Shown here piece by piece: positions 5,405 through 21,586 of a stretch of DNA of 22,301 bases. The first letter of the stretch is position 1; each line of letters starts with the position of its first letter. A program made the position numbers and the translations under genes. The notes below the pieces were generated by a model. It had not been told where the DNA came from, ran no database searches, and saw only the letters and a list, made by a program, of their open reading frames with translations. This DNA is from a virus. Location of the stretch: positions 1-22,301 of the IMG/VR virus record IMGVR_UViG_3300031236_000048. One strand, 5' to 3'.

Positions 5405-5664
5405 TGCCATACATCAAACAAGATGACAGAGCGCGCGTGCTGCGGGATGGTCCGCGCACGCCGGGCGAACTGAATTTCTTGATCAGCTTCCACGCGAATC
5501 AGATGTTGCGGATGGTGACGCACGGTAAGCCGCCTAGCTACCACGAGCGCAGCGCGATCCGCGCCGCAATCACAGACGCGTCGGACGAATTCTATCGTCG
5601 CAAAATGGCTGACTACGAAGACGGTGCCAAGCACCGAAACGGAGACTGCTATGACCCTGAATAA
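5404..5664 (+). CDS. DUF6899-like small phage protein
   Basis: The 86-residue protein starts MPYIKQDDRARV, then PRTPGELNFLISFHANQML, and ends EFYRRKMADYEDGAKHRNGD. This pattern (MPYIK..., TPGELNY.I, EFYRR..APYED.K...NGD.Y) is that of a small phage and bacterial family I remember as DUF6899, whose function is unknown. It has no membrane segment or catalytic motif. It overlaps the previous stop by one base (TAATG, 5402-5406) and has a strong Shine-Dalgarno AAGGAG at 5389-5394. A GC-rich hairpin falls in its first codons (see 5435-5461). The 3' end overlaps the beginning of the next gene by 14 bases if that gene starts at 5651. Confidence 0.8.
   Translation: MPYIKQDDRARVLRDGPRTPGELNFLISFHANQMLRMVTHGKPPSYHERSAIRAAITDASDEFYRRKMADYEDGAKHRNGDCYDPE
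5435..5461 (+). other. Strong GC-rich hairpin in the 5' coding region
   Basis: GCGTGC (5435-5440), a bulged T, and GCGG (5442-5445) pair fully with CCGC (5452-5455) and GCACGC (5456-5461) across a six-base loop GATGGT. That gives ten base pairs, nine of them G-C. It starts about 31 bases after the ATG of the DUF6899-like gene. There is no T tract, so it is not an intrinsic terminator. It could slow ribosomes or mark an RNA processing site, or be a by-product of Arg/Gly/Pro codons. Confidence 0.4.
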
Positions 5665-6097
5665 AGACCTGGTTTGGTATTGCGCCGGCCCGATGACGGG
5701 CTACGCACGCTTCAACTACCCGATGTTCCGAGCCGCCGCAGAATATATGCGCGGGCTCGGGCTCACAGTCATCTCGCCAACAGAACTGGACAGCGAGTTG
5801 ATGCAGCAGGTGGCTTGGGATTCGCCGGATGGCGATGCGTCCACGTTGACGAAGGCGACCGGCGAGACCTGGGGCGACGTGCTCGCGCGCGACGTGAAGG
5901 TCATCTCTGATACGCTGGGCGGCATCGTCGTGCTGCCGGATTGGTTTAAGTCTCGTGGCGCGCGCCTAGAAGTGTTCGTGGGCCTGCTGACTGGCAAAGA
6001 ATTCGGCGCGTTCTACTTCAATCACGCGAATGACCCGGTGCTCGAAGTGGCGCCCGTCGGGTGGATTCGCAAGGTGATGCGAGAGCACATTCCGTGA
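5651..6097 (+). CDS. DUF4406-like protein, nucleoside 2-deoxyribosyltransferase-type fold
   Basis: I place the start at the ATG at 5651 (148 residues) because GGAG lies six bases upstream (5641-5644). A GTG at 5624 would add nine residues without a Shine-Dalgarno. The N-terminus WYCAGPMTGYARFNYPMF is the signature of DUF4406 and related deoxyribosyltransferase-fold proteins (strand, then GPMTG, then N-P-F). It is followed by the helix AAAEYMRGLG and strand LTVISPTELD. The second half has W-GDVLARDVKVI, the strand GGIVVLPDW, and SRGARLEVFVGLLTG, where Glu of LEV matches the family's conserved acidic position. Relatives cleave or transfer N-glycosidic bonds of nucleosides or nucleotides; activity here is predicted only. 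With the MazZ-like gene close by it suggests control of the nucleotide pool. Confidence 0.85.
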   Translation: MTLNKDLVWYCAGPMTGYARFNYPMFRAAAEYMRGLGLTVISPTELDSELMQQVAWDSPDGDASTLTKATGETWGDVLARDVKVISDTLGGIVVLPDWFKSRGARLEVFVGLLTGKEFGAFYFNHANDPVLEVAPVGWIRKVMREHIP

Positions 6098-6757: not shown

Positions 6758-7315
6758 ATGTTTGACAAACTGTTTGAGATCATCCAGGCGATCTTCACGT
6801 CCCTACTGCCGTTCGTGGTGCTGCAACCGTTCGAGGAAGGGTGCCTCTGCCGTCTAGGGGTGTTTAAACGGGTGCTGAAGTCCGGCTTCCACTGGTGCAT
6901 CCCGCTCGGCGTCGACGTCGTATGGCATGAGCACACGACGCCGACGACCGCGCATTTGCATGGGTTATCAACTACCACGAAAGATGGAAAAAGTGTCGGG
7001 TTCGATGCAATCGTGACCTATCAGATCAACGACATTCAGAAAGCTCTATTGGGCGTGACGACAGTGCGAGATGCAATCACAGACGTCTGCATGGGTATTA
7101 TAGGTACTGAATTGACGGGTTCAACGTGGGTTGAGGTGGCACATGGTGATACGCTAGAGGGCTTGACCAAAGCGTGCCGGGGGAAGGGATGGAAGTGGGG
7201 GATCGAGGTGATTCAGGTACAGCTAGCGGGGATCTGCCAAGTGAAAAACATCCGCCTCTCTGGAAGCGGCGCGACTTCTTTGGCACATGGAAGTGGGCCC
7301 TCGACATCTGGATAA
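6758..7315 (+). CDS. SPFH/Band 7 domain protein
   Basis: The 185-residue protein begins with a hydrophobic helix (LFEIIQAIFTSLLPFVVLQP, 5-24) that would anchor it in the membrane. It continues as a compact SPFH/Band 7 domain: EEGCLCRLGVFKRVLKSGFHW (26-46), the strand pair around LHGLSTTTKDGKSVGFD, then AIVTYQIND (84-92) and IEVIQVQLAGI near 148-158. Phage versions of this length are common; they lack the long coiled-coil C-terminus of cellular stomatins. Their role is unknown; proposals include membrane microdomain organisation or superinfection effects. The last 20 residues (SGSGATSLAHGSGPSTSG) are low complexity. It ends the rightward operon, three bases from the stop of the convergent late operon, and an AAGGA Shine-Dalgarno lies at the end of the preceding gene. 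Confidence 0.87.
   Translation: MFDKLFEIIQAIFTSLLPFVVLQPFEEGCLCRLGVFKRVLKSGFHWCIPLGVDVVWHEHTTPTTAHLHGLSTTTKDGKSVGFDAIVTYQINDIQKALLGVTTVRDAITDVCMGIIGTELTGSTWVEVAHGDTLEGLTKACRGKGWKWGIEVIQVQLAGICQVKNIRLSGSGATSLAHGSGPSTSG
7244..7269 (-). terminator. Candidate leftward intrinsic terminator of the late operon
   Basis: Read on the minus strand, CCGCTTC (7269-7263), loop CAGA, GAGGCGG (7258-7252) form seven pairs with one G-T wobble, then ATG and five T residues (7248-7244). On the plus strand the same wobble becomes a C-A mismatch, so the stem favours leftward RNA. It is about 50 bases beyond the stop of the last late gene, inside the 3' end of the convergent SPFH gene. The three-base gap before the T tract and the short T run make it a moderate, not strong, terminator. 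Confidence 0.42.
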
Positions 7316-7318
7316 CTC

Positions 7319-8128
7319 CTACTGAAGTTGACGCACTTTAAAGTAGCTGCCAGCACTCATGGTTGTTGAAGTTGCGTTGCTGGTTTGCTGGGCCCAATAA
7401 ATAGCAAGTGTACCTGGACTCATGGCTGAGAAGCATCCGCGCGCGCTGAGCTGGTTAAGCGCGCTGCCGCCGGTTAAACTGAAATCTATACGGCCGCCCG
7501 TTGCTGGACCGTTGCCGCCAACATTCATGGCCTCAGTTGGAGGGGAGTTGAATACCGCTCCATCCATGCCGCCCATGTACATCCAGCACGAGGCTGCGTG
7601 GTCGAGGAACGCACCACTGAATTCAGGCAGAAAGGAAAATCCGGGATTCGGTCCCGAGGCGCCGGTCGTAGTGACTTCTACTAGAGCTTCCCATTCATAT
7701 ATCCCAGGACCAGGCAAATAGAACTGAAGCGCCGGATCTATAGTCATGACGTTGCCGTCGGGCGCGCTTGTAGCTACGGGCTTCACGGCGTAACCGATAA
7801 ACTTCGACGGCTGTGGCACATATGGATCCACGTCCATAAGCTTCTGGCCGTACACGTTGAACAGCTGCACGCGGAGTGCGCCCAGAAGTGACGCCGGGTT
7901 CAGGTATATAGGTGGAAAGCGGCCATTGTTGTCTGATGTTATTACGTTCGAGGCAAACGGAGTCGTCAAATATCCGTCCTGGTATACCGTCATTGGCAAC
8001 TCTATAGGACCGGACGATTTTGCCTGTAGGAATACTAAGTAACATGACGGTTGAATTAATCCGTACGGTGATAACGGCTTCAGCTGCGGCTCCGCGAACA
8101 GCACGCCGACTGGGTTGACGACCGTCAT
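7319..8128 (-). CDS. Fibre/decoration-type structural protein, paralogue 2 (269 aa)
   Basis: Last gene of the late operon. Residues 1-106 form a domain shared with the preceding gene: VGVLFAEPQLKPLS, VYQDGYLTTPF, NNGRFPPIYLNP, VDPYVPQP. The remainder is a beta-rich domain with ASCWMYMGGMDGA and the terminal pattern GTLAIYWAQQTSNATS...SAGSYFKVRQLQ, resembling the trimeric beta-sandwich heads of phage fibres. It is most likely a virion surface protein, either a receptor-binding fibre/spike or a head decoration; the sequence cannot decide between them. It starts one base after the stop of the paralogue (TAACATG), consistent with tandem duplication followed by divergence. No catalytic or membrane features are seen. 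Confidence 0.8.
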   Translation of the reverse strand: MTVVNPVGVLFAEPQLKPLSPYGLIQPSCYLVFLQAKSSGPIELPMTVYQDGYLTTPFASNVITSDNNGRFPPIYLNPASLLGALRVQLFNVYGQKLMDVDPYVPQPSKFIGYAVKPVATSAPDGNVMTIDPALQFYLPGPGIYEWEALVEVTTTGASGPNPGFSFLPEFSGAFLDHAASCWMYMGGMDGAVFNSPPTEAMNVGGNGPATGGRIDFSLTGGSALNQLSARGCFSAMSPGTLAIYWAQQTSNATSTTMSAGSYFKVRQLQ

Positions 8129-8129
8129 G

Positions 8130-8897
8130 TTACGCGACTCTTTGCAGTGTCATCACGCAACCGGCACTCAACGTAACACCATTCGAACTCGCGTTGGCCT
8201 GACCCCAGTTGAAGGAGAACGTGCCTGACGTAGAGGTAGTGAAGACACCACGAATGAAAAGTCCGTTCAACGCACCTGCGCCCGTTAGGCTGTTATTAGG
8301 TGTCGCCTGGTTGACGAATCCGCCGTTCGCATCCGCGCCATCGAGGTTGCCAACCCAACCAAACGACTTCGCCCAGTTCGGAACCAATGTGCCGCTGTAC
8401 TCGACTTCCCAATCAAGACCAGGAGTTACACCCGTAGATCCCACTGTGGTAAACTCAAGAAAGAGTTCAAACGCATAAGTCGCTTGAGTAGCAGGCTGCG
8501 GGACCACTATCTGAAGGTCTGGGTCAATGTTATAACCGGTCGTAGTGAAAGTGGTGGCCGCAGCTTTAAAGACCGCTTGCAGATTATAGGGAGCCGGAAC
8601 GTACGGATCCACGTTCTCAAGAATCGTGCCTGCGGAATTCTTCAACACCACCTGATAGATCTTAGACGGGTCCAAATAGATTGCCGGGAAGCGGCCATTG
8701 ATGTCCGCTGTGATTGGCGTCGGGCTCTGGGAGAACGGCGTCGTGAGCGCGCCATCCTGATATACGTTCTGCAGCGTGCCCATCGCCGAGCCCGTCACAT
8801 AGAACGTGCGAGTGCAGAGCGGCTGGACGGCGCCGGTCGTTGAGAGCGGGGTGTTGCGGGGCTCAGTGAAGAGTACGCCAATCGGTAGTGCTGACAT
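8130..8897 (-). CDS. Fibre/decoration-type structural protein, paralogue 1 (255 aa)
   Basis: Residues 1-102 carry the same domain as the following gene: IGVLFTEPRNTPLS, VYQDGALTTPFS, INGRFPAIYLDPS, VDPYVPAP. The C-terminal half (about 130-255) is a predicted beta-sandwich: YAFELFLEFTTVG, LDWEVEYSGTL, FIRGVFTTSTSGTFSFNWGQ and an ending SAGCVMTLQRVA. N-terminal domains of this type recur in structural proteins of proteobacterial podoviruses. It probably attaches to the virion through the N-terminus and exposes the C-terminal head, but its target is unknown. The ATG overlaps the stop of the 1468-residue ejection protein by one base (TAATG on the minus strand, 8899-8895). Confidence 0.82.
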   Translation of the reverse strand: MSALPIGVLFTEPRNTPLSTTGAVQPLCTRTFYVTGSAMGTLQNVYQDGALTTPFSQSPTPITADINGRFPAIYLDPSKIYQVVLKNSAGTILENVDPYVPAPYNLQAVFKAAATTFTTTGYNIDPDLQIVVPQPATQATYAFELFLEFTTVGSTGVTPGLDWEVEYSGTLVPNWAKSFGWVGNLDGADANGGFVNQATPNNSLTGAGALNGLFIRGVFTTSTSGTFSFNWGQANASSNGVTLSAGCVMTLQRVA

Positions 8898-11800
8898 TAG
8901 AATGGAACCTCGTCTTCGTCGGTCGCAGAAGCTGCGTTACCCATCATCGCGTTTCGGCCGCGCTCCTGGCGCAAACTCTCTAGACGGTTTGCTGCTGAAA
9001 TGAGGGAAGGTCGGAGAGACTTTTCAGCAGCCGCGCTCTTTTTGCTTGGACCGGCTGCGTTGGCGCCTTCGCCTTGCCTGCTAGCCAACTGTTCAGCATT
9101 TCGTGCGTAGCGGCTATCTGCGATGAATCCACGGTGCTCTGGGGAGCTAAAGAGTTGGTGGAAGTCGGGAGTGCTCCGGATGAGTTCGTCTGTGAGTTTG
9201 CCATGTTTCACCAATTCGGGAATCGTCATGTCGCCTTGCTCCGCGTGTTCGTAAGCGGTCTTCGCCCACGACCACACGGTTTCTTGTACTTCACGCGGCG
9301 TCCAGGAATCGCCGGTCATGTGCGTCAACATTTTGGCCGCCGCACGCACTTTTGCGCTCAGCGCCATATAGGTTGGCGACTTACCTGGACCGGCTTTATT
9401 GAGCGCGCCGCCCAACTTTGCAGGATCAATTTTCGCGAACGCAGCCATCCAGGCATCGTTCGTCACTTCGTTGACGTTGTCGTGCAAATTCTGGTAGAAG
9501 CTGTGGACCTTCGGGCCGGACAGCGTGAGTTTATCCGGGTTCTCGCTCGTCAGAGCGCGCACCGAGTTGTTGATCCACGCGCCGAGCACGTTGCCGGTGC
9601 CCGGCGTCTCCGGACCTTTCAATGAGGAGTCGGACAGGATCTTTGTGATCGCGGCCGGATCCTGCGGGCGCCCAGCCTTATCCCAATTGATGAACGACCG
9701 CAACGCGTTGTGGAAATTCATCTGTACGGAAGTCTGCGGGCTCATGGCCGCGAGGAGCGCGCTGAAGCGTGGCGCATCGGCGCCGAAGACATTTGCGATA
9801 GCCTTCGCACTGTCGCGATACCAGCCTTTCTTTGCTTTGCCGCCCAGGGCTGCCGCCGCGTACTCTTCAGTTGCCGGGGCACTGTGGAACGCGTCAACGA
9901 GCCGCTTCGAGGTATCGGTGCGCAGCTGAGCACGTTCCTGATCGGTCAGATGACTGAATACCGGATGGTTCTCGGTAGCCGTGTTGCCATTGTGCTCGCG
10001 GAAGAAGTCCGGATTATACTTGCCGCCCCAATCTTTGGCCTGCGGACCCGCAAGGATGCCGGTGCCGTCAGCATTCCGCTGAGCTATGGCGCCCTGTTCT
10101 AGCTTCGAGCTGAGCGCGTGGAGATCCTTGGGAGCGAACGGTTTGTCGACATCGGCGACGAGCGTGGGCTCAGTGTTTGAGTTGACGACGCTCGTCTTGC
10201 CGACGTTCGCACCGGCATCCTTCATTGCCTGGATAGCCTCTTCAGGCGCCATCACGCGGCCGCCGTTCGCGGGATCGCCGACGTGCAGTCCAATATTTAC
10301 CCTGGCGGCCGGTTCCTCGCCAGGAGCTTCGGGCTCCATCTTCGGGCCGCCGCGCTGCCGGGCGCCGCCGATGATCTGGCCCAGAGGTGCGGGTGTGCGA
10401 TCCTGTTTGACTGGCACGCGACCCCAGATGTCCGGGAGCTGGCCTTTCTCATACGGATTGCCACCACGCGGCTCAGCTGGCGCGGGCTCAGCTTTCGGGC
10501 CGCCGCGCTGCCGCCCGCCTTGGATCGCCTCGCCTAATGTGGAGGGTTTGCGACCTTCAGCCTGTGCGCGTGCGTTCTCTTCAGCCAAACGATTCGGCAC
10601 CGTGCGCTCATTACCCCAGGCATCAACGACCTTGGCGCCGCTGTTGTAAGGGTTGCCGGTCTCAGCTTTCGGGCCGCCGCGCTGACGAGCGCCCGCGAGT
10701 GATTGACCGAGCGGCGTGACTTCAGGAGCGCCACCGCCGGGACCAGGAGTCGGGGGCGGTTGTTCGCCGCCGAGCTGCGTGATGCGGCCTTCAACATCTT
10801 TGAGTCGCGCTCTCTCGGCCGCTTTCTCAGGATTGCCACCGACGAGCTTGCCGATCTTCGCAGCAACGCCAGAGCCTTCAGCGACAATAGGTCCGAGGAC
10901 CGGCGCCACATGATGGGCCGCTAAATCGACGGTAGCATGAGCGCCCTTGCCGAGCTGTTCTCGAATACCGGCCGCGACGCCAGTGTTGTAGGTCTGCGCT
11001 CCAGCACCAGGATAACGGTTGTCCATGCGCAGCATGTTGCTGGCATCGTTCAACGTCTTGTAGTGACCCATCTCCGTGGAGTCAAACACGGCGGGCATCT
11101 TCGTGCTGTATTTGTTCAGCTGCTTATAGAAGTTCTGCGGGCTCCACGCACCTTTGCCGCCGCCAGCATCGGCCAGGCGATCAGCCATGTGGCCTTTGAG
11201 CGCGCGGATCGCGCCCGCCGCATCTTCGGCCAGCTCACCGTTGCCGAGGTGCGCGGCTGAGCGCAGCACATTCACGACATGGTTGAACTGCTCCGTCGGC
11301 AGGTTGGCAATATAATCCGGTATCGCACCAATTGGCACGTCGCGGTTGATGCCGCTACGGTTGTCAAGGAGCTTTGCTATGCCGGTCGGGTTTTCGAGGA
11401 GTGCCGCTTTACGAGCACGCAGTGCTCGCGCATCTTTGAAAGTCTTTTCGCCGCCAGCTTCAGCGACATCCGTGTCGAGCGCGTCGCGGAGCTTGCCGAT
11501 GATAGGCGCTGTTTCGTGGTTCCATTTGCTGCCGAGGAACTTACGCATAGTCTCGGCTTGCTCGACGGTGGCCGGATGGAATGTACCGTTGTCACCCATC
11601 AAGCCGAGCTTCTTCGCGAGCGGGATGACGCCCTTCTCAATAAGTGGAGCGCCCGCGAGGCTGCTCTGCCATTCGTGACCCTGGTTGTTGATGTAGTCCG
11701 AGAAGCGAGGCAGCTGGGTGATCGGCTGGCCTTTCGCCACCGTCTTCGCATCTTCGTACGTGCCGTGGATCGCATTGTCGAACCAATCCGAGATCTTGCC

Positions 11801-13303
11801 GACAGTGCTATCGAGGATGCCGCCGCGCTCCTCCATCGCATGCTGATCCACGCCGGACGCAGAATCGCCGACGTTGCTCGCTATCTGGCCGGCGCCTTTC
11901 TTCAGTGCATCCTGTTCGTTACCGATGACCGCCTGCATGCGTTTGCCGCCCGCGTCATTGATCTTCGCGTGGTTGGCATCGACGCTGGTGTCGGCATAAT
12001 CGCCAGTGATGGCGCTCGTGCGAACCTCGCCGAGCGCGCCGTTGGTCATCTGATCGAGCTTGTTCAGCGCATCGAGGCGCGTTTGCTGATCGGCCGCCGG
12101 TACGGCGCCGCTCTGGGATCCTTCAGCCGCTGGCGCCGTGAATCGCACCGGAGCCGGTTCGGCAGCGGCGGGCGGCGCGCCAGCGGGAGCAGGCGTCGTC
12201 GCGGCCATGGGAACTGATTCAAGGGAACCGGGCTCGCCGGGGGCGGCCGGCGGCGGGACTTCGCGCGGCGGGGGCATGACGTCCGGGCGCGGCGCGCCGG
12301 GAGTCTCCAATCGAAGATCCTCAGTCGTGGGAGGGTTGGCTCGAATATCGGCCGCTTTAGCCTGTAGCGCGTCCTGTACGGTCTGCCGGCGATCCGGTAT
12401 ACCGCCCGGAGGCGTTCCCTGGGCGGCTTGTCGGCGCTCCACTGCGGGAGCCGGGGCGGCTTCTTCTGCGGGCGCGGCGGCCGGTGCCAGCGGGTCAGGC
12501 TGAGCTTTCAAATCTTCGCCAGTAACCGGCTTGCCACCAGTCTCGGGCGGCGCATTCTGGGCTTGGGGCGGCGTGGCCGTCTTCGCCATGCCGTTCTCGT
12601 CGTACTCGGTGCCCGTAGGCACCTTGGGATTCAGCTCCAAAGCCGGACCGCGAGCGCCCGCGCGTGCCAGTCCCTCGGCACCAGGAAGCGCCATGGCGGC
12701 TTCACCCGCCATCTGGAGCCCGGACTTCGCATACTCAGTGAAATCATCGCCGAAGATCTGGCGCGCCGCCTTGTCGACGGCAGCCATTGCTTCCGGACCC
12801 TTGGCGGCCTGGAATGCGCCCTGGAGCATGCGAGTCGGACCTTCCGTAGCGCGGCGGCCGCTCTCAGAGGTCGGATCGATGGTGAACGAGCTTTCTACCG
12901 CGTCGCGCACTGCCTTGGCAGCTTCAGGATCCTGGGTCGCTAGCAGCGCGCCGACATGCGCGAGGAATCCGCCAGTCATCGCGGCCGCGCCGCCGAACGT
13001 GTTGTTCCAAGCGCCCACGCCGAGACCCTTCAGCACTGTGCCATAGTCGCCAGCGGTCCAATCAGGATTCGCGGTCTGCGTGCTGCGGTCGGGGAAGGAG
13101 TTCGGCTGCGCCATGAAGTTCTGCACTTCGGCTGGGCCTTGCGGATCGCGGCCGACACGCTGTTTAAACAGCGTGGCCGGATCCGGCATCGAGGAGATGT
13201 CGGGCGAGGTTGACGCGGGCGCGGGCGCCGATGCCGTGGGATCCATCCACGTAGACGGATCCGGCATCGCTGAAATATCTGGAGCTGCGGCAGCAGACGC
13301 CAT
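8897..13303 (-). CDS. Very large internal virion/ejection protein with enzyme-like C-terminus (1468 aa)
   Basis: Third of three large consecutive ejection-type genes (compare P22 gp7-gp20-gp16), so probably injected with the DNA. Residues 8-16 and 34-42 repeat PDIS.MPDP. Residues 80-220 are Ala/Gly-rich helical with hydrophobic patches. About 225-440 is a Pro/Ala-rich disordered linker. About 560-700 is a helical region (TMRKFLGSKW, FKDARALRARK, NRDVPIGAIPDYI) of a kind often seen in big phage virion proteins. Three RQRGGPK repeats occupy about 865-990. A module at about 1003-1100 (GLHVGDP, NTEPTLVADVDKP, LAGPQAKDWGGKYNPDFF) and another at about 1155-1355 (W1161-YRDS, FGADAPRFSALLAAMSPQTS, LSGPKVHSFYQNL, VTNDAWMA with D1283, TPREVQETVWSW) recur in phage proteins. 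The second resembles HhH-GPD DNA glycosylases in layout; I infer this and cannot prove it. The reading frame is intact. The ATG overlaps the previous stop (TAATG). Confidence 0.85.
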   Translation of the reverse strand: MASAAAAPDISAMPDPSTWMDPTASAPAPASTSPDISSMPDPATLFKQRVGRDPQGPAEVQNFMAQPNSFPDRSTQTANPDWTAGDYGTVLKGLGVGAWNNTFGGAAAMTGGFLAHVGALLATQDPEAAKAVRDAVESSFTIDPTSESGRRATEGPTRMLQGAFQAAKGPEAMAAVDKAARQIFGDDFTEYAKSGLQMAGEAAMALPGAEGLARAGARGPALELNPKVPTGTEYDENGMAKTATPPQAQNAPPETGGKPVTGEDLKAQPDPLAPAAAPAEEAAPAPAVERRQAAQGTPPGGIPDRRQTVQDALQAKAADIRANPPTTEDLRLETPGAPRPDVMPPPREVPPPAAPGEPGSLESVPMAATTPAPAGAPPAAAEPAPVRFTAPAAEGSQSGAVPAADQQTRLDALNKLDQMTNGALGEVRTSAITGDYADTSVDANHAKINDAGGKRMQAVIGNEQDALKKGAGQIASNVGDSASGVDQHAMEERGGILDSTVGKISDWFDNAIHGTYEDAKTVAKGQPITQLPRFSDYINNQGHEWQSSLAGAPLIEKGVIPLAKKLGLMGDNGTFHPATVEQAETMRKFLGSKWNHETAPIIGKLRDALDTDVAEAGGEKTFKDARALRARKAALLENPTGIAKLLDNRSGINRDVPIGAIPDYIANLPTEQFNHVVNVLRSAAHLGNGELAEDAAGAIRALKGHMADRLADAGGGKGAWSPQNFYKQLNKYSTKMPAVFDSTEMGHYKTLNDASNMLRMDNRYPGAGAQTYNTGVAAGIREQLGKGAHATVDLAAHHVAPVLGPIVAEGSGVAAKIGKLVGGNPEKAAERARLKDVEGRITQLGGEQPPPTPGPGGGAPEVTPLGQSLAGARQRGGPKAETGNPYNSGAKVVDAWGNERTVPNRLAEENARAQAEGRKPSTLGEAIQGGRQRGGPKAEPAPAEPRGGNPYEKGQLPDIWGRVPVKQDRTPAPLGQIIGGARQRGGPKMEPEAPGEEPAARVNIGLHVGDPANGGRVMAPEEAIQAMKDAGANVGKTSVVNSNTEPTLVADVDKPFAPKDLHALSSKLEQGAIAQRNADGTGILAGPQAKDWGGKYNPDFFREHNGNTATENHPVFSHLTDQERAQLRTDTSKRLVDAFHSAPATEEYAAAALGGKAKKGWYRDSAKAIANVFGADAPRFSALLAAMSPQTSVQMNFHNALRSFINWDKAGRPQDPAAITKILSDSSLKGPETPGTGNVLGAWINNSVRALTSENPDKLTLSGPKVHSFYQNLHDNVNEVTNDAWMAAFAKIDPAKLGGALNKAGPGKSPTYMALSAKVRAAAKMLTHMTGDSWTPREVQETVWSWAKTAYEHAEQGDMTIPELVKHGKLTDELIRSTPDFHQLFSSPEHRGFIADSRYARNAEQLASRQGEGANAAGPSKKSAAAEKSLRPSLISAANRLESLRQERGRNAMMGNAASATDEDEVPF
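10341..10712 (-). repeat. Triple RQRGGPK repeat in the ejection protein
   Basis: Three copies of the coding unit for LG(Q/E)xIxGxRQRGGPKxE occur at about 10667-10712, 10493-10545 and 10341-10384 (the minus-strand order of the protein). The plus-strand core TTCGGGCCGCCGCGCTG is identical in all three. Between copies lie Pro/Gly/Asn-containing spacers with GNPY twice and D.WG twice. The period is about 150-175 bases. It looks like an internal repeat of a basic peptide motif, plausibly for nucleic acid or protein contact. Confidence 0.75.
13156..13175. repeat. Perfect 20-bp palindrome with central GTTTAAAC
   Basis: CACGCTGTTTAAACAGCGTG equals its own reverse complement over all 20 bases. It lies in the N-terminal coding region of the 1468-residue protein, where it encodes TLFKQR. 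The symmetry without a loop fits a dimer-binding site better than an RNA hairpin. A perfect 20-bp palindrome is not expected by chance in a window of this size, but coding coincidence is possible. Confidence 0.6.
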
Positions 13304-15171
13304 TACTGGGCTCCGAATTGTTTGCGGACCTGATCCAATGTCAGACTAGGATAGTTGGCTTTGTGCGTGTTGTAATATGATTGGATCTGCGCATCGCTGT
13401 ACGTCGGCTTCGCAGCTGGCGCGGCCGGTGCGGCGGATTTAGTTGTTGCGGCTGACGCGACTGACGCGGCTGGCTTCGCATTGACTATATCTTCTTGCGG
13501 CCAATACTTCTGATTCCACTGAGGAAATTTCGCGGGGTCGTTCCCAATTTTCGTATAAGCGGCTGCGCGCTTAGCAGTATCTATAGTGTACTGCGCGCTA
13601 CGCATGTTGGTGGAAAGCAGATCTTTGACGGTGTCATCGTTCATTGACACGGACGGGCTAAGTTCATGCAACTGCAGCATGACTTCAGACTGCGTCATCT
13701 TAGGACCGTAAATACCCTTGGCGTTGGCGAGAGCAGCATTGCCGAGATACTTCGCCAGTTCCTGATAGTTTGATGTCGCAGGAACCTGCACGCCGGGCAA
13801 CCATCGCGCGGCTTGTGCGATAACCGACTGCCAAGCGCCGGTCGTGCCACCCTTCGAGTTCATGACATCTTGCGCGGCGCGCAAATAGGTCAACGCCTGT
13901 GAAGCGGCTTTAGTTGCGTCACCAGAATCCTTGTTCAGATTATTAGTATTCTCAGTGTAATTGTCGTACACCTTCTGCTCGTCGGGCGAACGTGTTGCGT
14001 TGGCTGGCGTCTTCGGACCTTGGAATCGGAAGCTGCTATCCTGCATCGCCTTCGTAGTTTGCGGATCTATAGGCGCGGTATTGCCGGGCGTGTTCGTAAC
14101 AGCACCAGGTTGAGCAGCGACACCCGTAGCATCGGGCGTATTCTGCGCTTGCACTTTCTGCACAGCTGTAGCGACTTTGGCACGTGTATCAGCTTTTGGC
14201 GCACCTGTAATAGTGCTCTGCGCTCCAGGGTGACCTTGATTCGAAAGACCCTGCATGACCATAGCATCCGGTGACGGAAAGCCGTTCGCTTTGTACGCCG
14301 GAACCGAAATTACATGACCCTGGCCATCCGGCACAGGTACTAACTTCACAGCTTCTTGCACAAGTTTTGAATATTGCTCGTCACTCATGCCGCTACGTTC
14401 ACCAGGAACAGTCATCCCAGTAGTCTTGTCAATGTAAGTGCCATCCGGGCGCGCCACAACTTCACGACCAGTGTATTGATGAACGGTCTGCGCCACGTGC
14501 TCTGCATATTGACGTGCAGCTTGATCTTCGTCAGCTGAGTCAGGAATCATTGCCCGAATACGTTTCGAGGCGTTTGGTGCCACGGCGTCAAGCTGGGCGA
14601 GCGCGTTACCTTCATCAGCGTCCGACACTGTGTGCATGGCTTCGAACAGTTGCTGTGAGCCCTGTTGAGATTGTGCGGACTGAGACTGAATACGCTGCTC
14701 TCGGCGCATCTGTTCCAACTGTACGAGGCTAGGATCACCTGTTAATGCGGCGCGTTGCATGCGCTGCATTTCTTGCTGGGTTACCGGAGGAACGAAAAAA
14801 GCTGAGCGAAGACCCGCATCAGTTTGATTAGGATCCCACCAGCTGTTCTCTGGTGTAGCTCCAGAAGCATTGCTGTCATCCGCGCCAGAAGTCCTAGTAG
14901 AGCCGCCAGCACCGCCGTTAGCAGCGCTGCTAGTGCTAGTAGGAACACCACCAGCTGCAGAAGCATTCGAATCATTAGTATAATCCGCCAATGCGTGCAT
15001 GATCAGCGGCATCTTCGCGCGCATGATCTGATTAGACATCTGTTTTTGCTGAACGTCTTGTTGAGCGCTCTGGGATTGCTGCTGGGCGAGCCCGGTCTGC
15101 GCTTGCGTCAGACCAGTGCCTGCTATCATGTTACCCCAATCAACTACCGGGCCTGGATTGATGTCAGCCAC
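13303..15171 (-). CDS. Internal virion/DNA-ejection protein (622 aa)
   Basis: Middle member of the ejection trio. The N-terminus (VDWGNMIAGTG, then a Gln-rich helix 24-48) is amphipathic. A Ser/Gly/Asn-rich low-complexity segment follows (about 65-105), then helical Gln-rich sequence (MQRMQRAALTGDPSLVQLEQMRREQRIQSQ in parts, about 135-170). A mixed domain contains VHQYTGREVVARPDGTYID (about 230-250). A helical C-terminal half includes YLRAAQDVMNSKGG, LAKYLGNAALANAKG and SVSMNDDTVKDLLSTNMRSA (about 425-540). An Ala/Pro linker and a small helical end (YSDAQIQSYYNTHKANYP) close the chain. No catalytic site is seen. It is probably packaged in the capsid and ejected with the DNA. The GTG start has GGGAG six bases upstream; the stop overlaps the next ATG (TAATG, 13305-13301). 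Confidence 0.78.
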   Translation of the reverse strand: MADINPGPVVDWGNMIAGTGLTQAQTGLAQQQSQSAQQDVQQKQMSNQIMRAKMPLIMHALADYTNDSNASAAGGVPTSTSSAANGGAGGSTRTSGADDSNASGATPENSWWDPNQTDAGLRSAFFVPPVTQQEMQRMQRAALTGDPSLVQLEQMRREQRIQSQSAQSQQGSQQLFEAMHTVSDADEGNALAQLDAVAPNASKRIRAMIPDSADEDQAARQYAEHVAQTVHQYTGREVVARPDGTYIDKTTGMTVPGERSGMSDEQYSKLVQEAVKLVPVPDGQGHVISVPAYKANGFPSPDAMVMQGLSNQGHPGAQSTITGAPKADTRAKVATAVQKVQAQNTPDATGVAAQPGAVTNTPGNTAPIDPQTTKAMQDSSFRFQGPKTPANATRSPDEQKVYDNYTENTNNLNKDSGDATKAASQALTYLRAAQDVMNSKGGTTGAWQSVIAQAARWLPGVQVPATSNYQELAKYLGNAALANAKGIYGPKMTQSEVMLQLHELSPSVSMNDDTVKDLLSTNMRSAQYTIDTAKRAAAYTKIGNDPAKFPQWNQKYWPQEDIVNAKPAASVASAATTKSAAPAAPAAKPTYSDAQIQSYYNTHKANYPSLTLDQVRKQFGAQ

Positions 15172-15173
15172 GA

Positions 15174-17201
15174 TTAGCTCCCGTATCCGCTACTGTTAAA
15201 AGAATTTCCGGTGCCGCTATCGTCCCAGTTCGGTGGGTTCTGATAACTACCATATGACACTACAGAGCCGTTCGGAATTGTGTTATCGTACGTGGGTCCA
15301 TTGCCGCCATAGCCGCTGCCGTTGGCGTTGGTAGAACTATTGTTTGAGTTACTACCGCCGCCGAACAGATTGCCTAGCGCACCGGCACCGTAGCTGCCAG
15401 CGCCCAGCAGGGATGATGCGAGGCCACCTAATGCGCCTGTCACGCCTGCTGTGCCGCTCGCCGCCGCGTTACCACCGCCAATCTGCGCGTTGCTTATGTT
15501 CGCGCTCGTCTTGAGCATGGCGTTGGAAAGGTTTCCGGTAGCGTTCTCACCTATACCAGCTTCACCCATGAGTTGATTTACGTAGTTGTTATAATTTTGG
15601 GAAGCAGTGCCTGTGACGTATTGACCAACTGAAGCTAATGTATTTGGTGTGTACGCACTACCGCCAGCTGCGGCCTGCCGATCAATCGCCTGTGTGCCCT
15701 GTTGCACGGCGAATTTATAGCCGGGAGTATTATCCAAGTAAGTGCTAGGATTGCTGGTTCCGTTCAACAACCCTTCTAGAGAAGTAAAGGCGGCGTTGCC
15801 CGTATTCAACTGATTACCGTAGAGCGCGCTAATGTTGCCCATAGCGGTTTGCTGAGTAGCACCCGCTTCACCGTAACCCGCTTGTTGCTGCTCCGAAGCG
15901 TTTTGCGCGCCGTATGCGCCAATACCACCAGATATCAGAGACCCTAACGCGCCGCCGCCCACCAATGAGCCAAGTACGCCATCTATGCCGCCTGAAGATG
16001 CGGCACCAGTTGCAAGAGCGCTGCCACCGCCGTTGCTATTGAATGCAAGGGCGCTGCCGCCGCCGTTGTCGCCGTATGCCATATTTGATCCACTATTGTT
16101 GCTGAGCGCTGAAGTGATGCCGCCAGTAGCGAGCCCTGAGCCCGCACCAAGAACTGCACCGCCCGCGTTTCCAAACATACTTGAGGCGCCGGATTGAGCT
16201 GTTTGTGAACCAACAAGTCCACTAACAGCGCCACCCACTGCGCCACCGATTGCGCCGTTAGCCGCGCCTTCGCCGTTTATCGCGCCCTTAAGCGCGCCTG
16301 CACCCGCGCCAGTGACGATATGTCCACCAACATTACCAATGCCTAGTTCACTACCGACAGTGTTGCTGAGCCCGTTCGTGATGCCGCCACCAATAGCTCC
16401 AAGTAGTGTGTTCTTGCCGAGACTACCTTGACCTGACAGTTCTGTTTGTACAGCGCCAAGCCCTGCACCTACTGCTGCGCCGCCAGCTACGCCACCAGCT
16501 ACACCACCACCGAGAGCGGCACCTGCTACTGGAGCTAGCGCGCCACCAGTGAAAGCTATCATGCCTGCTAGACCGATGTCGTTTATGTCCGCGCCCAGGG
16601 TCTTATCAGGCTTAGCCTGTATGATGCCGCCACTCTGACTTGAAGCCAGAATATTCGGATCAAACGAAACCGTGGCGCCCGGCAACGGAGACGTGCTGCC
16701 TATTCCGTATTGATTCGTCTTGCCGACAGAAGCGTTATACGCTGATGTCGCGTTGCTTGCGTTCTCTTGCGCAGAGTTCTTCGTACCGCTGCCGCCAAAC
16801 GAACCGCCGTAAGTGGTAGGGGTAGCTTTAGCAGTAGATTCTGCCGCTTGTGCTGCGCGCAATTTCTGATCTGATGCGTATTGCTGATCCGCCAGTTCAT
16901 TAAGCTGCGCTATAGTCTTCGGGGCACCAAACTGCATGTTCGCATTGCCAGCTTGCGCCTGCGGCACGGTCTTACCAGCAAGCTCACCCTGGTAAGGCGC
17001 AAACGCTGCGTAATATTGTTGGAACTGACTCTGCGACATTCCTTTCGGAAAAGCCGTTGCTAGCATCGAGGGCGCATTACCTAAGAAGCTCTCAAGATCA
17101 CCTTGCTGGTTGGCAAGTTGGAACGCGCCTGCAAAATTACCCTGCGACAAAAGGGTTTGATACGTCGTCGCAGACGTGGCGGTTGGTGCCGAATTCGCCA
17201 C
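15174..17201 (-). CDS. Internal virion/DNA-ejection protein with glycine-zipper region (675 aa)
   Basis: First of the ejection trio. Residues 1-120 are helical and soluble (LLSQGNFAGAFQLANQQGDL). About 209-345 is a long Gly/Ala-rich stretch with many GxxxG and GGxxxG steps (for example ALAPVAGAALGGGVAGG and GAIGGAVGGAVSGLVG), able to insert into or line a membrane channel. Residues 380-405 contain two near-identical 33-base repeats coding GGGSALA. The segment around 490-560 (NTPGYKFAVQQGTQAIDRQAAAGGS, in parts, and TASQNYNNYVNQLMGEAG) is a conserved motif of phage ejection/structural proteins. The C-terminal 100 residues are Gly/Ser/Asn/Tyr-rich and disordered. It probably forms part of a trans-envelope conduit during infection. 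The GTG start has GGAG seven bases upstream, and the gene begins four bases after the endolysin stop. Confidence 0.8.
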   Translation of the reverse strand: MANSAPTATSATTYQTLLSQGNFAGAFQLANQQGDLESFLGNAPSMLATAFPKGMSQSQFQQYYAAFAPYQGELAGKTVPQAQAGNANMQFGAPKTIAQLNELADQQYASDQKLRAAQAAESTAKATPTTYGGSFGGSGTKNSAQENASNATSAYNASVGKTNQYGIGSTSPLPGATVSFDPNILASSQSGGIIQAKPDKTLGADINDIGLAGMIAFTGGALAPVAGAALGGGVAGGVAGGAAVGAGLGAVQTELSGQGSLGKNTLLGAIGGGITNGLSNTVGSELGIGNVGGHIVTGAGAGALKGAINGEGAANGAIGGAVGGAVSGLVGSQTAQSGASSMFGNAGGAVLGAGSGLATGGITSALSNNSGSNMAYGDNGGGSALAFNSNGGGSALATGAASSGGIDGVLGSLVGGGALGSLISGGIGAYGAQNASEQQQAGYGEAGATQQTAMGNISALYGNQLNTGNAAFTSLEGLLNGTSNPSTYLDNTPGYKFAVQQGTQAIDRQAAAGGSAYTPNTLASVGQYVTGTASQNYNNYVNQLMGEAGIGENATGNLSNAMLKTSANISNAQIGGGNAAASGTAGVTGALGGLASSLLGAGSYGAGALGNLFGGGSNSNNSSTNANGSGYGGNGPTYDNTIPNGSVVSYGSYQNPPNWDDSGTGNSFNSSGYGS
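16011..16067 (-). repeat. Two-copy 33-base tandem repeat
   Basis: On the plus strand, 16011-16034 and 16044-16067 are near-identical (TGCAAG.GCGCTGCC.CCGCCGTT, differing at two bases). They code NGGGSALA twice in the disordered part of the 675-residue ejection protein. This is a local duplication in low-complexity sequence. Confidence 0.65.
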
Positions 17202-18584: not shown

Positions 18585-20087
18585 TTATCCTATTTTAGTA
18601 GCCGTCATATATGAACCAGCCATGACGTGCAGGGTGCTACCTGAAGATGCTGTGTTCTGCGAGGCTTCGAAAATTAACGTTCCGGTAGCGGTGACCGTAA
18701 GATTGCCACGGATCATCAAAGTGCTAGGACCAGTGGATGATGTGCTAACAGTTGCGAACGCAAAGCCGTTAGTCCACGCGGTCGCGACCGCAGATACTAT
18801 TGTGCCCGATACCGCTTCACCTACGTAAGTGAAAAACCCAGTTTCGGTCGCGGTGCCGCCGAATAGGGTTTTTATTCCGTCTGTGGCTGTAGCCGATTCA
18901 TAAAACAACACCCACATCTCGACTTCATACGTTCCTGTTTCATTAAACGTTAACGATAGTCCTGTGGCCGCTGGAGTAGCGTTGTTTGTGATCGTGAAAT
19001 CAGCGGTCAAATGAGAAGAAACTCCAGTCTCTACTTGCGTTAACGTTCCTGTTAACGGACTGGAGGTTGCAATAATGTGTCCGTCACCACGCACGCCGAG
19101 ATATTCTGCTGTTTCACTATAGTTTTGAACGTATAGCGCATAATCAGACGCGTTAAAACCAGCGTTGATCTGCACGCCGTAGGATTCTCCACCAGCGCTG
19201 CTGCCTATGAATTGAGCTGCGTACTGCTCTGCGCCTCCTAGCACTTGTAAACCGAACAGACCACCCGAATCTGAGGCGGTTATGATGACAGCAGTATTAC
19301 TTGCGTTACCAAAAAAGTTTATGGCGCCAGAAAAAGGTTCGAAAATCCAAGGCGCACTCACTACAACGCCCGTAGCGGGATCCGCGCCTAGCGCGATAGT
19401 GGTCGGCGGATCTGGATCATCGCAGTCGTACTGAACGAAACCAGCGCCAGTTGGTGTAGTAGAGCTACCACCGCCACCAGAAGGGACATCCCACGTACCG
19501 TCGGCACGCAAAAAGTTGACTGTTCCACCACCGCTAGCGGGCACCATACCCTGCAAGGAGCTGGTGAATAAATTCAGCATCGCAGTCACTTGCGTTTCAG
19601 TCAAGTCCTGCGGAACGGCGATAGCTGCCGTGTCGTTCCCTATAATAGTGAACGCCGGAATTGGTGATATGGCGCCGGTTGGCACCGGCACCCACATACC
19701 GTCAGCATTCAAGAAGTCAATCGATGTGGCTGCGCCTGATGGCGGCACTGCGCCGGACGTCGTGCTGGTGAACTCCTGAATCATAGCCGTAACCTGAGCT
19801 TCGCTCAAGGTTTGCGGCGTAACAGTGAATGCTGTATTGTTCCCTATAATAGTGAACGGAGGGATCGGCGCCAACGACGTCACCGGCACACCTGACGCAC
19901 TTATGGTGCCAGGGTAAGGCGAAGTGCCCGTAATCGTTATGCCGGGTCCAGCTATCGTATTGCGCGCATCAGCAGCTTTGAGGTGCGCGGATATGAAGTG
20001 ACGAAACCACTCAGGATCCCAGTTCTTCGGGATGTGTTTGACCGTAGCGGAGGCCAAACCTTGCCTGATCGGCAGCGGCAGCGTCAT
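18585..20087 (-). CDS. Tail fibre protein
   Basis: The N-terminus (ATVKHIPKNWDPEWFRHFIS, 14-33, then AHLKAADARNTIAGPGITI) is the tail-attachment type found in short fibres of proteobacterial podoviruses. Residues 74-135 and 142-203 are two copies of a common fibre repeat: I(P)xFTIIGNxTA, L(S/T)E.QVTAM...FTS...G.VP.SG, then FL.ADG.W. The middle (205-340) contains beta repeats and GSSAGGESYGVQINAGFN. The last 130 residues form a beta-sandwich-like head ending GTLIFEASQNTASSG and MAGSYMTATKIG, related in pattern to the ends of the two small fibre-type proteins. It is probably trimeric and receptor-binding. It follows the gp10-like gene where P22 has its tail needle gene, and the ATG overlaps the gp10-like stop (TAATG). 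Confidence 0.85.
   Translation of the reverse strand: MTLPLPIRQGLASATVKHIPKNWDPEWFRHFISAHLKAADARNTIAGPGITITGTSPYPGTISASGVPVTSLAPIPPFTIIGNNTAFTVTPQTLSEAQVTAMIQEFTSTTSGAVPPSGAATSIDFLNADGMWVPVPTGAISPIPAFTIIGNDTAAIAVPQDLTETQVTAMLNLFTSSLQGMVPASGGGTVNFLRADGTWDVPSGGGGSSTTPTGAGFVQYDCDDPDPPTTIALGADPATGVVVSAPWIFEPFSGAINFFGNASNTAVIITASDSGGLFGLQVLGGAEQYAAQFIGSSAGGESYGVQINAGFNASDYALYVQNYSETAEYLGVRGDGHIIATSSPLTGTLTQVETGVSSHLTADFTITNNATPAATGLSLTFNETGTYEVEMWVLFYESATATDGIKTLFGGTATETGFFTYVGEAVSGTIVSAVATAWTNGFAFATVSTSSTGPSTLMIRGNLTVTATGTLIFEASQNTASSGSTLHVMAGSYMTATKIG
19479..19868 (-). repeat. Two-copy fibre repeat, 68-codon period
   Basis: The coding sequence for the FTIIGN...ADGxW unit occurs twice, offset by 204 bases. 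Bases 19635-19654 and 19839-19858 are identical (GTTCCCTATAATAGTGAACG on the plus strand). The surrounding codons have diverged, so the duplication is old or the identical core is kept by selection or gene conversion. The TATAAT within it faces rightward but has no matching -35 element. Confidence 0.75.
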
Positions 20088-21586
20088 TAATACTTCCCGC
20101 CTGCAAGAGTCGCCTGTATATCTACAGTGAATAGTGGCGTCGCATCCGTGATGCGAAATTTATACACGCGATTGCGACTCTGTCCTAACTGCCACCATAC
20201 AGCGCGCTGGCCGGTGCCTTCATCCTCACCTTGAGTACCGAGGGTCTGCGGATCCGACCATTCCTCATACGTCTTGCCAGAGTTGTCAGATACGTAAAGC
20301 GAAGCCGTGGGTGCAACCGTCTGATTTGAACCGCCACCCATCGTAGTTATCAACTCCAGACGCCGATGTTGTATACGATTGTTTTTGTCGTATACCGGCT
20401 GCGTGGTAATTTCAACTATTTGCGTGGCGCCGAATTCCGTACCTACCGTCGCGTCGAGCACACCGACCTGACTGCTCTGACCGTCGCCCATTAGCTGAAC
20501 GCCAAGGCCGTTGTGATAGGCTTGCGGACGGTAGAACGCCGTCGCCCCGGACGAGGTTAGATTGAACCACTTCTGCGTGAGACAATCGTATGCAATAGTC
20601 TGAGCACCTTGCGGCATCACCAGGATCCACATCGGATGTCCGTAGACAGTTGGCGTCAGTGCATAGCATCCTGTCAGATTGGTTGTCTGCAGAAGGTTCT
20701 CGATGCCACTATTCGACACGCGTATTGGTGTCTGACCGTTGCGACGCCGCACCGTAAGATCATTTCCAACCCAGAAGATTGATTGATCCTGTAGAGCAAT
20801 GGCGTACGGGCAGAGCGGATGTGCGCCGATCTGCATGAACGTATCCGGTGCGCTGCTGAAAGGCGTGCCCGTCGGATTGCCGACGTTAAGGTAGCCTTCC
20901 GACGTGCGTCGACCAAAGACCATGACTTCTCGATGATCTACCGTGCCGCCGACGAAAAGATCGGTGCCGAATTCACGCGTGAAGCTCGCGGCCGTGGTGA
21001 ACGTGATCTGGTTGTTACCAGAAATCTGGCGACCATCGTCATTGAAGAACGTCGTGCCGTTCAGCGCCAGGAAGACGATGTATGTGTCGACGAACCAGCA
21101 ATCTATGGCACCGAGCGCCTGAAAGAACGGCTGCGCGTCCAACGTGTTCCAGGTTGTGCCTGACAGCGGTGTGTACGTCCAGCAATTAACGGTGCCAGGC
21201 TCCAGAATCACCATACACGCGCCGTTGTCTGTCATTCGCACGAACTGAAAGCCGGTGATAGGCGTGTTGTTCAGCGGCGCGCTCATGAGCGCGACTTGCG
21301 TGATCGGGCTCATCTGTACGGAGTACAGGTTTGGGCCGATCACGACATACTCGATGCCGTTCATCTCCCAAAAGCCGCGCACCGGCAGACCGCTGCCATC
21401 ATTGAAGCCGGGAATATCGCGGATGCCAGGCATGCGGCGCAGAGTTGCCGGCGGTTGCTGGCCTTTCACATCGGCAGTGGTGTCTTGATCCAGCAGTTCG
21501 CTGAAGCAACCGATGAGACGCTTCGAGCTAGCGCGAGGGTCTTGAGAAACGTACGAGCCGAGAGCGAGAGGTATGGTCGTAGCCAT
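20087..21586 (-). CDS. P22 gp10-like tail hub / packaged DNA stabilisation protein
   Basis: The 499-residue protein matches the P22 gp10 type in length and pattern. It starts MATTIPLALGSYVSQDPRAS, followed by RLIGCFSELL and PATLRRMPGIRDIPGF (46-61). Repeated WD-like beta blades follow (GFWEMNGIEYVVIGPNLYSV, in parts 71-90; AIDCWFVDTYIVFLAL around 157-172; FGRRTSEGYLNVG; SIFWVGNDLTVRRRNG), and it ends ATLAGGKY. In P22, gp10 binds beneath gp4 on the portal and closes the tail channel, keeping the packaged DNA inside. The gp4-like gene lies upstream with only a tiny HNH frame between. The ATG overlaps the HNH stop by one base (TAATG, 21588-21584). There is no sign of a frameshift. Confidence 0.9.
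   Translation of the reverse strand: MATTIPLALGSYVSQDPRASSKRLIGCFSELLDQDTTADVKGQQPPATLRRMPGIRDIPGFNDGSGLPVRGFWEMNGIEYVVIGPNLYSVQMSPITQVALMSAPLNNTPITGFQFVRMTDNGACMVILEPGTVNCWTYTPLSGTTWNTLDAQPFFQALGAIDCWFVDTYIVFLALNGTTFFNDDGRQISGNNQITFTTAASFTREFGTDLFVGGTVDHREVMVFGRRTSEGYLNVGNPTGTPFSSAPDTFMQIGAHPLCPYAIALQDQSIFWVGNDLTVRRRNGQTPIRVSNSGIENLLQTTNLTGCYALTPTVYGHPMWILVMPQGAQTIAYDCLTQKWFNLTSSGATAFYRPQAYHNGLGVQLMGDGQSSQVGVLDATVGTEFGATQIVEITTQPVYDKNNRIQHRRLELITTMGGGSNQTVAPTASLYVSDNSGKTYEEWSDPQTLGTQGEDEGTGQRAVWWQLGQSRNRVYKFRITDATPLFTVDIQATLAGGKY

Follow-up and report, generated by a model that had tools for sequence, protein, structure and literature searches.

A predicted OGG-like HhH-GPD domain of the DUF7178 family in a probable ejected protein of a virus

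The DNA analysed here, referred to as the window, is the whole 22,301-nucleotide stretch of IMG/VR record IMGVR_UViG_3300031236_000048. Its minus strand carries a run of structural genes, four of which define the setting of the protein under study:

20087..21586, minus strand: head closure protein Hc3 (phrog_578, E 4.8e-62), at the start of the structural gene run
15174..17201, minus strand: DNA ejection protein (phrog_598, E 2.1e-14), two genes upstream of the gene for the 1468-residue protein
13303..15171, minus strand: 622-residue protein, whose gene separates the ejection gene from that of the 1468-residue protein, a position conserved in 10 relatives
8897..13303, minus strand: 1468-residue protein, a single open frame, probable ejected (internal virion) protein of the polyvalent type

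The order on this strand is Hc3, two further genes, holin-like and lysozyme genes, the phrog_598 gene, the 622-residue and 1468-residue protein genes and two tail genes. No break was found in the frame 8897-13303, which encodes 1468 residues throughout. Gene order and strand from the ejection protein to the DUF7178 protein described below were kept in eight relatives, with head closure ahead in seven. In the window and in these eight relatives the gene thus lies between the head-closure and ejection genes and the tail genes, as expected of a P22-type ejection protein, and occupies the position of the final ejection protein gene of P22. The 622-residue product is probably another ejection protein. 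Phage-collection searches with the 675-residue and 622-residue neighbours found no isolated phage with virion proteomics, and the full 1468-residue query returned only partial matches in the same kind of collection.

Some features of the neighbourhood were recorded in their own right. The adjacent tail-fibre-like genes at 7319-8128 and 8130-8897 (minus strand) both match phrog_24062 weakly and look like tandem paralogues. On the plus strand, the product of 6758-7315 is a membrane protein of the stomatin-like SPFH/Band 7 type (Pfam E 1.6e-11), and 5624-6097 encodes a DUF4406 or nucleoside 2-deoxyribosyltransferase-like product, possibly a nucleotide-salvage or conflict enzyme. PADLOC gave no match. 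The head-closure gene of one relative (G355:C1:13057-14568, the source record of L003) contains one in-frame TAG, which may reflect amber reassignment or a sequencing error.

The C-terminal part of the 1468-residue protein contains two modules with the following elements:

9995..10300, minus strand: module 1, residues 1002-1103 (phrog_11722, E 8e-9)
9134..9961, minus strand: module 2, residues ~1115-1390, DUF7178, predicted OGG-like HhH-GPD domain (Pfam, 47-sequence alignment, model and profiles)
9818..9823, minus strand: W1161-Y1162, a pair without variation (55/55 in alignment A5), close to the beginning of the core
9728..9742, minus strand: SPQTS (1188-1192), positional counterpart of the LSxQ of HhH-GPD enzymes (collinear hhalign placement)
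9485..9523, minus strand: LSGPKVHSFYQNL (1261-1273), degenerate HhH hairpin with predicted catalytic K1265 and stacking F1269 (K and F 55/55; aligned to the GPK of OGG2)
9443..9466, minus strand: VTNDAWMA (1280-1287), predicted catalytic D1283, codon at bases 9457-9455, and phosphate-contacting W1285 (D 55/55)
9272..9286, minus strand: QETVW (1340-1344), putative pocket Gln and stacking Trp (both 55/55; aligned with LDxxIW of OGG2)

Residues 1128-1345 matched Pfam DUF7178 (PF23802) with an E-value of 1.1e-10 and 42.1 bits against a curated cut-off of 27, rising to 46.8 bits with the domain alone, and phrog_3842 with an E-value of 1.1e-13. DUF7178, phrog_3842 and phrog_11722 are all families without an assigned function, and a literature search on DUF7178 found no paper. 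These matches, together with motif residues that are mostly invariant across 47 relatives, confirmed that the two conserved modules proposed by the sequence-only reading are real, the region given there as ~460 residues being ~471 residues long. Module 1 is strongly conserved in its own motifs (NxGL, TEPT, QxAIxQ and GP..W..F) and may be an enzyme in its own right; searches with it (9995-10300, minus strand) returned no solved relative and no known fold or function. An NCBIfam tyrosine transaminase match on residues 1002-1030 (E 0.0018) was discarded, being far below the cut-off of that model.

The 47 relatives are 44-68% identical to the query and keep most motif residues, K1265 and D1283 included, unchanged; judged from these sequences, such conservation is far beyond chance. 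A broader alignment of 55 members (A5), most of them 25-43% identical to its first row, contained only eight invariant columns, W1161, Y1162, S1188, K1265, F1269, D1283, Q1340 and W1344. The window domain keeps all eight, in addition to scoring above the family cut-off. K1265 and D1283 are separated by 18 residues, as in OGG2, and the position two residues past the Asp (W1285) is occupied by W in 45 members and by H in 10, with nothing else. The invariance of D1283 in every relative aligned bears out the expectation of the sequence-only reading, for which loss of this residue would have counted against a glycosylase.

Relatives of module 2 were encoded by at least 231 viral-contig stretches, whereas the genome collection contained three, so the domain is essentially viral. 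It occurs in phages that infect actinobacteria, cyanobacteria, roseobacters and Bacteroidota, and in those of many hosts that are uncultured. In 80 contigs, carrier frames of at least 1000 residues numbered 54, with 33 reaching at least 2000, and 22 carriers had no more than 700 residues, some frames being shortened where they run beyond the flank taken; separate proteins of ~600 residues make up about a quarter of the window-type relatives. The long carriers also contain ART-PolyVal, LPD22, LPD38 and LPD39 domains and, in one case, a zeta-toxin domain, while DUF7178 and phrog_11722 are the only recognised domains of the window protein. Module 1 lies ahead of DUF7178 in some relatives and behind it in others, which indicates domain shuffling. 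In one close relative (L001:4379-7065) the two modules occupy two successive frames, which suggests that a long gene was split or that separate genes were fused. In a further relative (L164:696-1604) an in-frame TAG of the DUF7178 frame coincides with the Ser of LSGPKV; this is either a decayed copy or the gene of a phage in which TAG encodes an amino acid.

DUF7178 members of isolated phages are mostly standalone proteins of ~200 residues, whereas the window domain carries an insert and is fused to an 1100-residue virion-type protein. These standalone members are common, one of them matching 128 records, and in 21 of 28 records lay no further than 10% of the genome length from one of its ends. 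The records are partly related and their start is arbitrary for circular entries, so that a nominal p-value for this count should not be read literally. The end of the genome is a region where early genes often lie. Some standalone members are annotated by actinophage annotators as "glycosylase" or "N-glycosylase/DNA lyase", so that this label is already public; it coexists with one "glycosyltransferase" and one "portal protein", which makes the annotation inconsistent.

The relationship of DUF7178 to known enzymes was explored by profile-profile comparison. Alignment A2 or A5 compared by hhalign with a six-sequence OGG2 profile returned a score of 43 (P ~7e-6) and a collinear alignment in which K, D, Q and W of the family fall on K, D, Asp and Trp of OGG2, respectively. 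The nulls were considerably lower, with a maximum of 16.8 for 40 column shuffles, 13.6 for the reversed alignment and a maximum of 22.0 for 30 unrelated phage families. Profiles of the other subfamilies remained near these values (endonuclease III 20.5, HP0602-type 19.7, MutY 18.3, AlkA 12.7) and a pooled HhH-GPD set was intermediate at 26.3, OGG2 alone standing out; hhalign of HhH-GPD with the narrow alignment A1 (Neff 2.7) produced no informative match. An hmmsearch of the PDB sequences with A2 listed nine chains at E ≤10, six of them OGG2, with a best E-value of 0.033; the matches are singly sub-significant and several of the OGG2 chains are variants of one protein. With the larger and broader A5, OGG2 was no longer listed. 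A short-chain oxidoreductase (3wtc) that recurred as a weak match was rejected, as it has a Rossmann fold while the model of the domain is all-helical.

Established family models did not recognise the domain. Pfam HhH-GPD (PF00730) had no match among the 47 and 29 members scanned, and neither Ogg-HhH (PF22175) nor the NCBI N-glycosylase model PRK01229 matched the members scanned, although both recognised an OGG2 positive control (L222). The lack of a Pfam HhH-GPD match is explained by the hairpin, which reads LSGPK and is thus degenerate ("GPK" instead of "GVGxK") with respect to the canonical LPGVGxK. Owing to the reduced hairpin and the unmatched family models, we describe DUF7178 as an OGG-like divergent HhH-GPD family and do not file it under OGG2 or PF00730. 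The control gene itself lies in a bacterial genome (L222:357-2130), adjoining a QueC-like gene and with a TIR-like-looking gene beside it, a locus that resembles a defence island built on base modification and excision.

Structure prediction was performed on the window domain and on a compact family member. The AlphaFold2 model of the window domain was all-helical with a pLDDT of 91.6; Foldseek found for it no relative in the PDB, only all-helix noise, and in BFVD recovered DUF7178 proteins and polyvalent proteins; the fold relatives in BFVD also comprise phage entries labelled as cell wall hydrolase SleB and as helicase. The compact member, gp115 of mycobacteriophage Kumao, was modelled with a pLDDT of 92.9. 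Its top PDB match was Pa-AGOG (probability 0.97, TM 0.53), with a weak E-value of 0.29, and its fifth was SsOgg (probability 0.75, TM 0.53). Among the 50 matches listed, only these two, mouse OGG1 and the Pyrococcus protein 1xg7, which we take to be probably AGOG-type, reached a TM of at least 0.4. The structural check suggested for the sequence-only reading therefore had a divided outcome, positive for the compact member and negative for the window domain, to which the HhH-GPD fold extends only through its family, since its own model has no PDB relative. Taken over the family, we consider it very probable that DUF7178 has the HhH-GPD fold.

The invariant residues were then compared with the active sites of known 8-oxoguanine glycosylases. 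In hOGG1 the catalytic residues are Lys249 and Asp268; the residue at K+4 is Cys253 (once printed as Cys235), for which OGG2 has His and AGOG has Phe; in OGG1 and OGG2 the residue at D+2, His or Trp, makes the phosphate contact; the base is contacted by Gln315, equivalent to Asp194 of MjaOGG2 and to Asp218, and stacked by Phe319, equivalent to Trp198 of MjaOGG2 and to Trp222, four residues past the Gln315 equivalent (PMC3397491). In DUF7178 the K is followed by F at K+4 and by D at K+18, position D+2 is always W or H, and the Q has its W at Q+4; the family thus matches all six pocket positions in residue class and spacing, Q1340 and W1344 being the counterparts of hOGG1 Q315/F319 and MjaOGG2 D194/W198. 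The residues known to discriminate 8-oxoG, which differ among OGG1, OGG2 and AGOG (PMC3397491), are not evident in DUF7178, and the substrate may therefore be another damaged or modified base. Q1190 of SPQTS would be the residue inserted into the duplex, and the W1161-Y1162 pair may have a role in base recognition.

Each of the known families shares a part of this pattern. OGG2 (PF22175; PDB 3fhf, 3fhg, 3n0u, 9o00) is the closest by profile, with K and D 18 residues apart, D or Q followed by W at +4 and His or Trp at D+2, whereas DUF7178 has Gln in place of Asp194, Phe instead of His at K+4 and a shorter hairpin. AGOG (PDB 1xqp) provides the best fold match of the compact member, the equivalent Phe at K+4 and the stacking Trp, but its K-D linker is much longer (K140, D172), the identity is 18% and the TM is ~0.5. 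Endonuclease III and MutY (PF00730) show the same motif order LSxQ, K, D, and the K-D spacing of E. coli Nth is also 18, whereas DUF7178 scores weakly against their profiles, has no HMM match to them, lacks the LPGVGxK hairpin and shows no trace of a motif for an iron-sulphur cluster. The resemblance to endonuclease III-like glycosylases from which the proposal had started was accordingly redirected to the OGG branch, the profile match to endonuclease III being weak (20.5). The broader proposal, an HhH-GPD-like domain with D1283 as the catalytic Asp, is sustained by the OGG2 profile match, the AGOG/OGG fold neighbours of the compact member and the alignment of the invariant D1283 to the OGG2 Asp, while its expected GVGxK hairpin is degenerate. 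Profiles and models together give good support to DUF7178 as a divergent HhH-GPD branch nearest OGG2, AGOG and OGG1.

On these grounds we consider that residues ~1115-1390 form a base-excising HhH-GPD domain near the 8-oxoguanine glycosylases within a virion-delivered protein, with a probability of roughly 0.6. It is improbable that the similarity to OGG is convergent or spurious and that DUF7178 is an unrelated all-helical fold; the window model without a PDB match, the weak E-values of hmmsearch with A2 and of Foldseek and the absence of OGG2 from the A5 hmmsearch speak for it, but the profile-profile scores judged against their nulls, the fold search and the six pocket positions with their published spacing converge on one narrow enzyme group. 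Somewhat less remote, though still unlikely, is a domain that retains the fold as a non-catalytic DNA-binding or structural element serving ejection or genome binding. Its location within an ejection-region protein, the degenerate hairpin and the fact that DUF7178 has no known activity would suit such a role; the invariant residues are, however, exactly the catalytic and base-pocket positions, and standalone members of ~200 residues encoded outside virion gene clusters keep all of them.

Phages use the HhH-GPD fold for base hypermodification, in enzymes proposed for hypermodified thymines, and the same fold might here serve another chemistry, exchanging or finishing a modified base of the phage DNA or acting on nucleosides or RNA. 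The invariant W-Y pair is specific to the family, and the pocket is conserved yet the 8-oxoG-discriminating residues (PMC3397491) are not evident, both of which would fit. All members nevertheless keep the K and D of bifunctional glycosylases and the window genes scanned include no base-hypermodification gene, and we regard this alternative too as having a low probability.

For the preferred reading, a base-excising glycosylase domain, the following mechanism can be proposed. The protein carrying the domain in its C-terminal part would replace a P22-type ejection protein and, taking that place, would reach the cell interior together with the genome, where it would act on DNA during the first minutes. 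F1269 and W1344 would hold the flipped-out base between them, Q1340 would contact or read it, and W1285 would contact the phosphate; cleavage of the N-glycosidic bond would be promoted by D1283, whether or not K1265 also attacks. The presence of K1265 makes nicking conceivable, since a Schiff base at this residue could lead to a cut in the strand, and the predicted DNA N-glycosylase possibly has AP-lyase activity. The oxidised or otherwise modified base would be removed from incoming phage DNA, either to repair damage that accumulated in the virion or to take off a host mark, or alternatively from the host chromosome.

Delivery with the genome is supported by the conserved gene order and by the polyvalent architectures of the relatives, both pointing to it from sequence; the separate proteins of ~600 residues among the window-type relatives weigh against it. 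Polyvalent proteins of phages and plasmids are considered to accompany the DNA into the cell (Iyer et al. 2017, PMC5512222), and the long relatives resemble them in being multidomain, with shuffled modules and ART-PolyVal, LPD22, LPD38 and LPD39 domains. The word "glycosylase" is absent from that survey and a DUF7178-type domain appears not to be listed in it. Placement in a virion-type protein and placement near a genome end would both allow early action, suggesting an enzyme active at the start of infection; given the early position and the polyvalent partners, we slightly favour a role in early conflict over house-keeping repair. We advance only tentatively, as a possibility below even odds, that an injected glycosylase/AP lyase attacks a specific base or mark early, stripping a host mark or damage from phage DNA or riddling the host chromosome with abasic sites. 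Removal of DNA bases as a weapon between host and phage is known from the defence glycosylases Brig1 and Brig3 (PMC11078745, PMC13160076); unlike the phage-encoded DUF7178 these are bacterial and anti-phage, and Brig1 belongs to the uracil-glycosylase superfamily, with a different fold.

Placing DUF7178 near the OGG glycosylases, with its residues named, makes many "hypothetical" early and virion proteins testable by standard glycosylase assays. The occurrence of the domain in proteins that probably enter with the DNA would extend the known activities of polyvalent proteins to base excision, and it raises the question of whether the target is the damaged or marked DNA of the phage itself or that of the host. 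If this reading is true, these proteins would represent a class of virion-delivered base-excision effectors within polyvalent proteins that is new to description.
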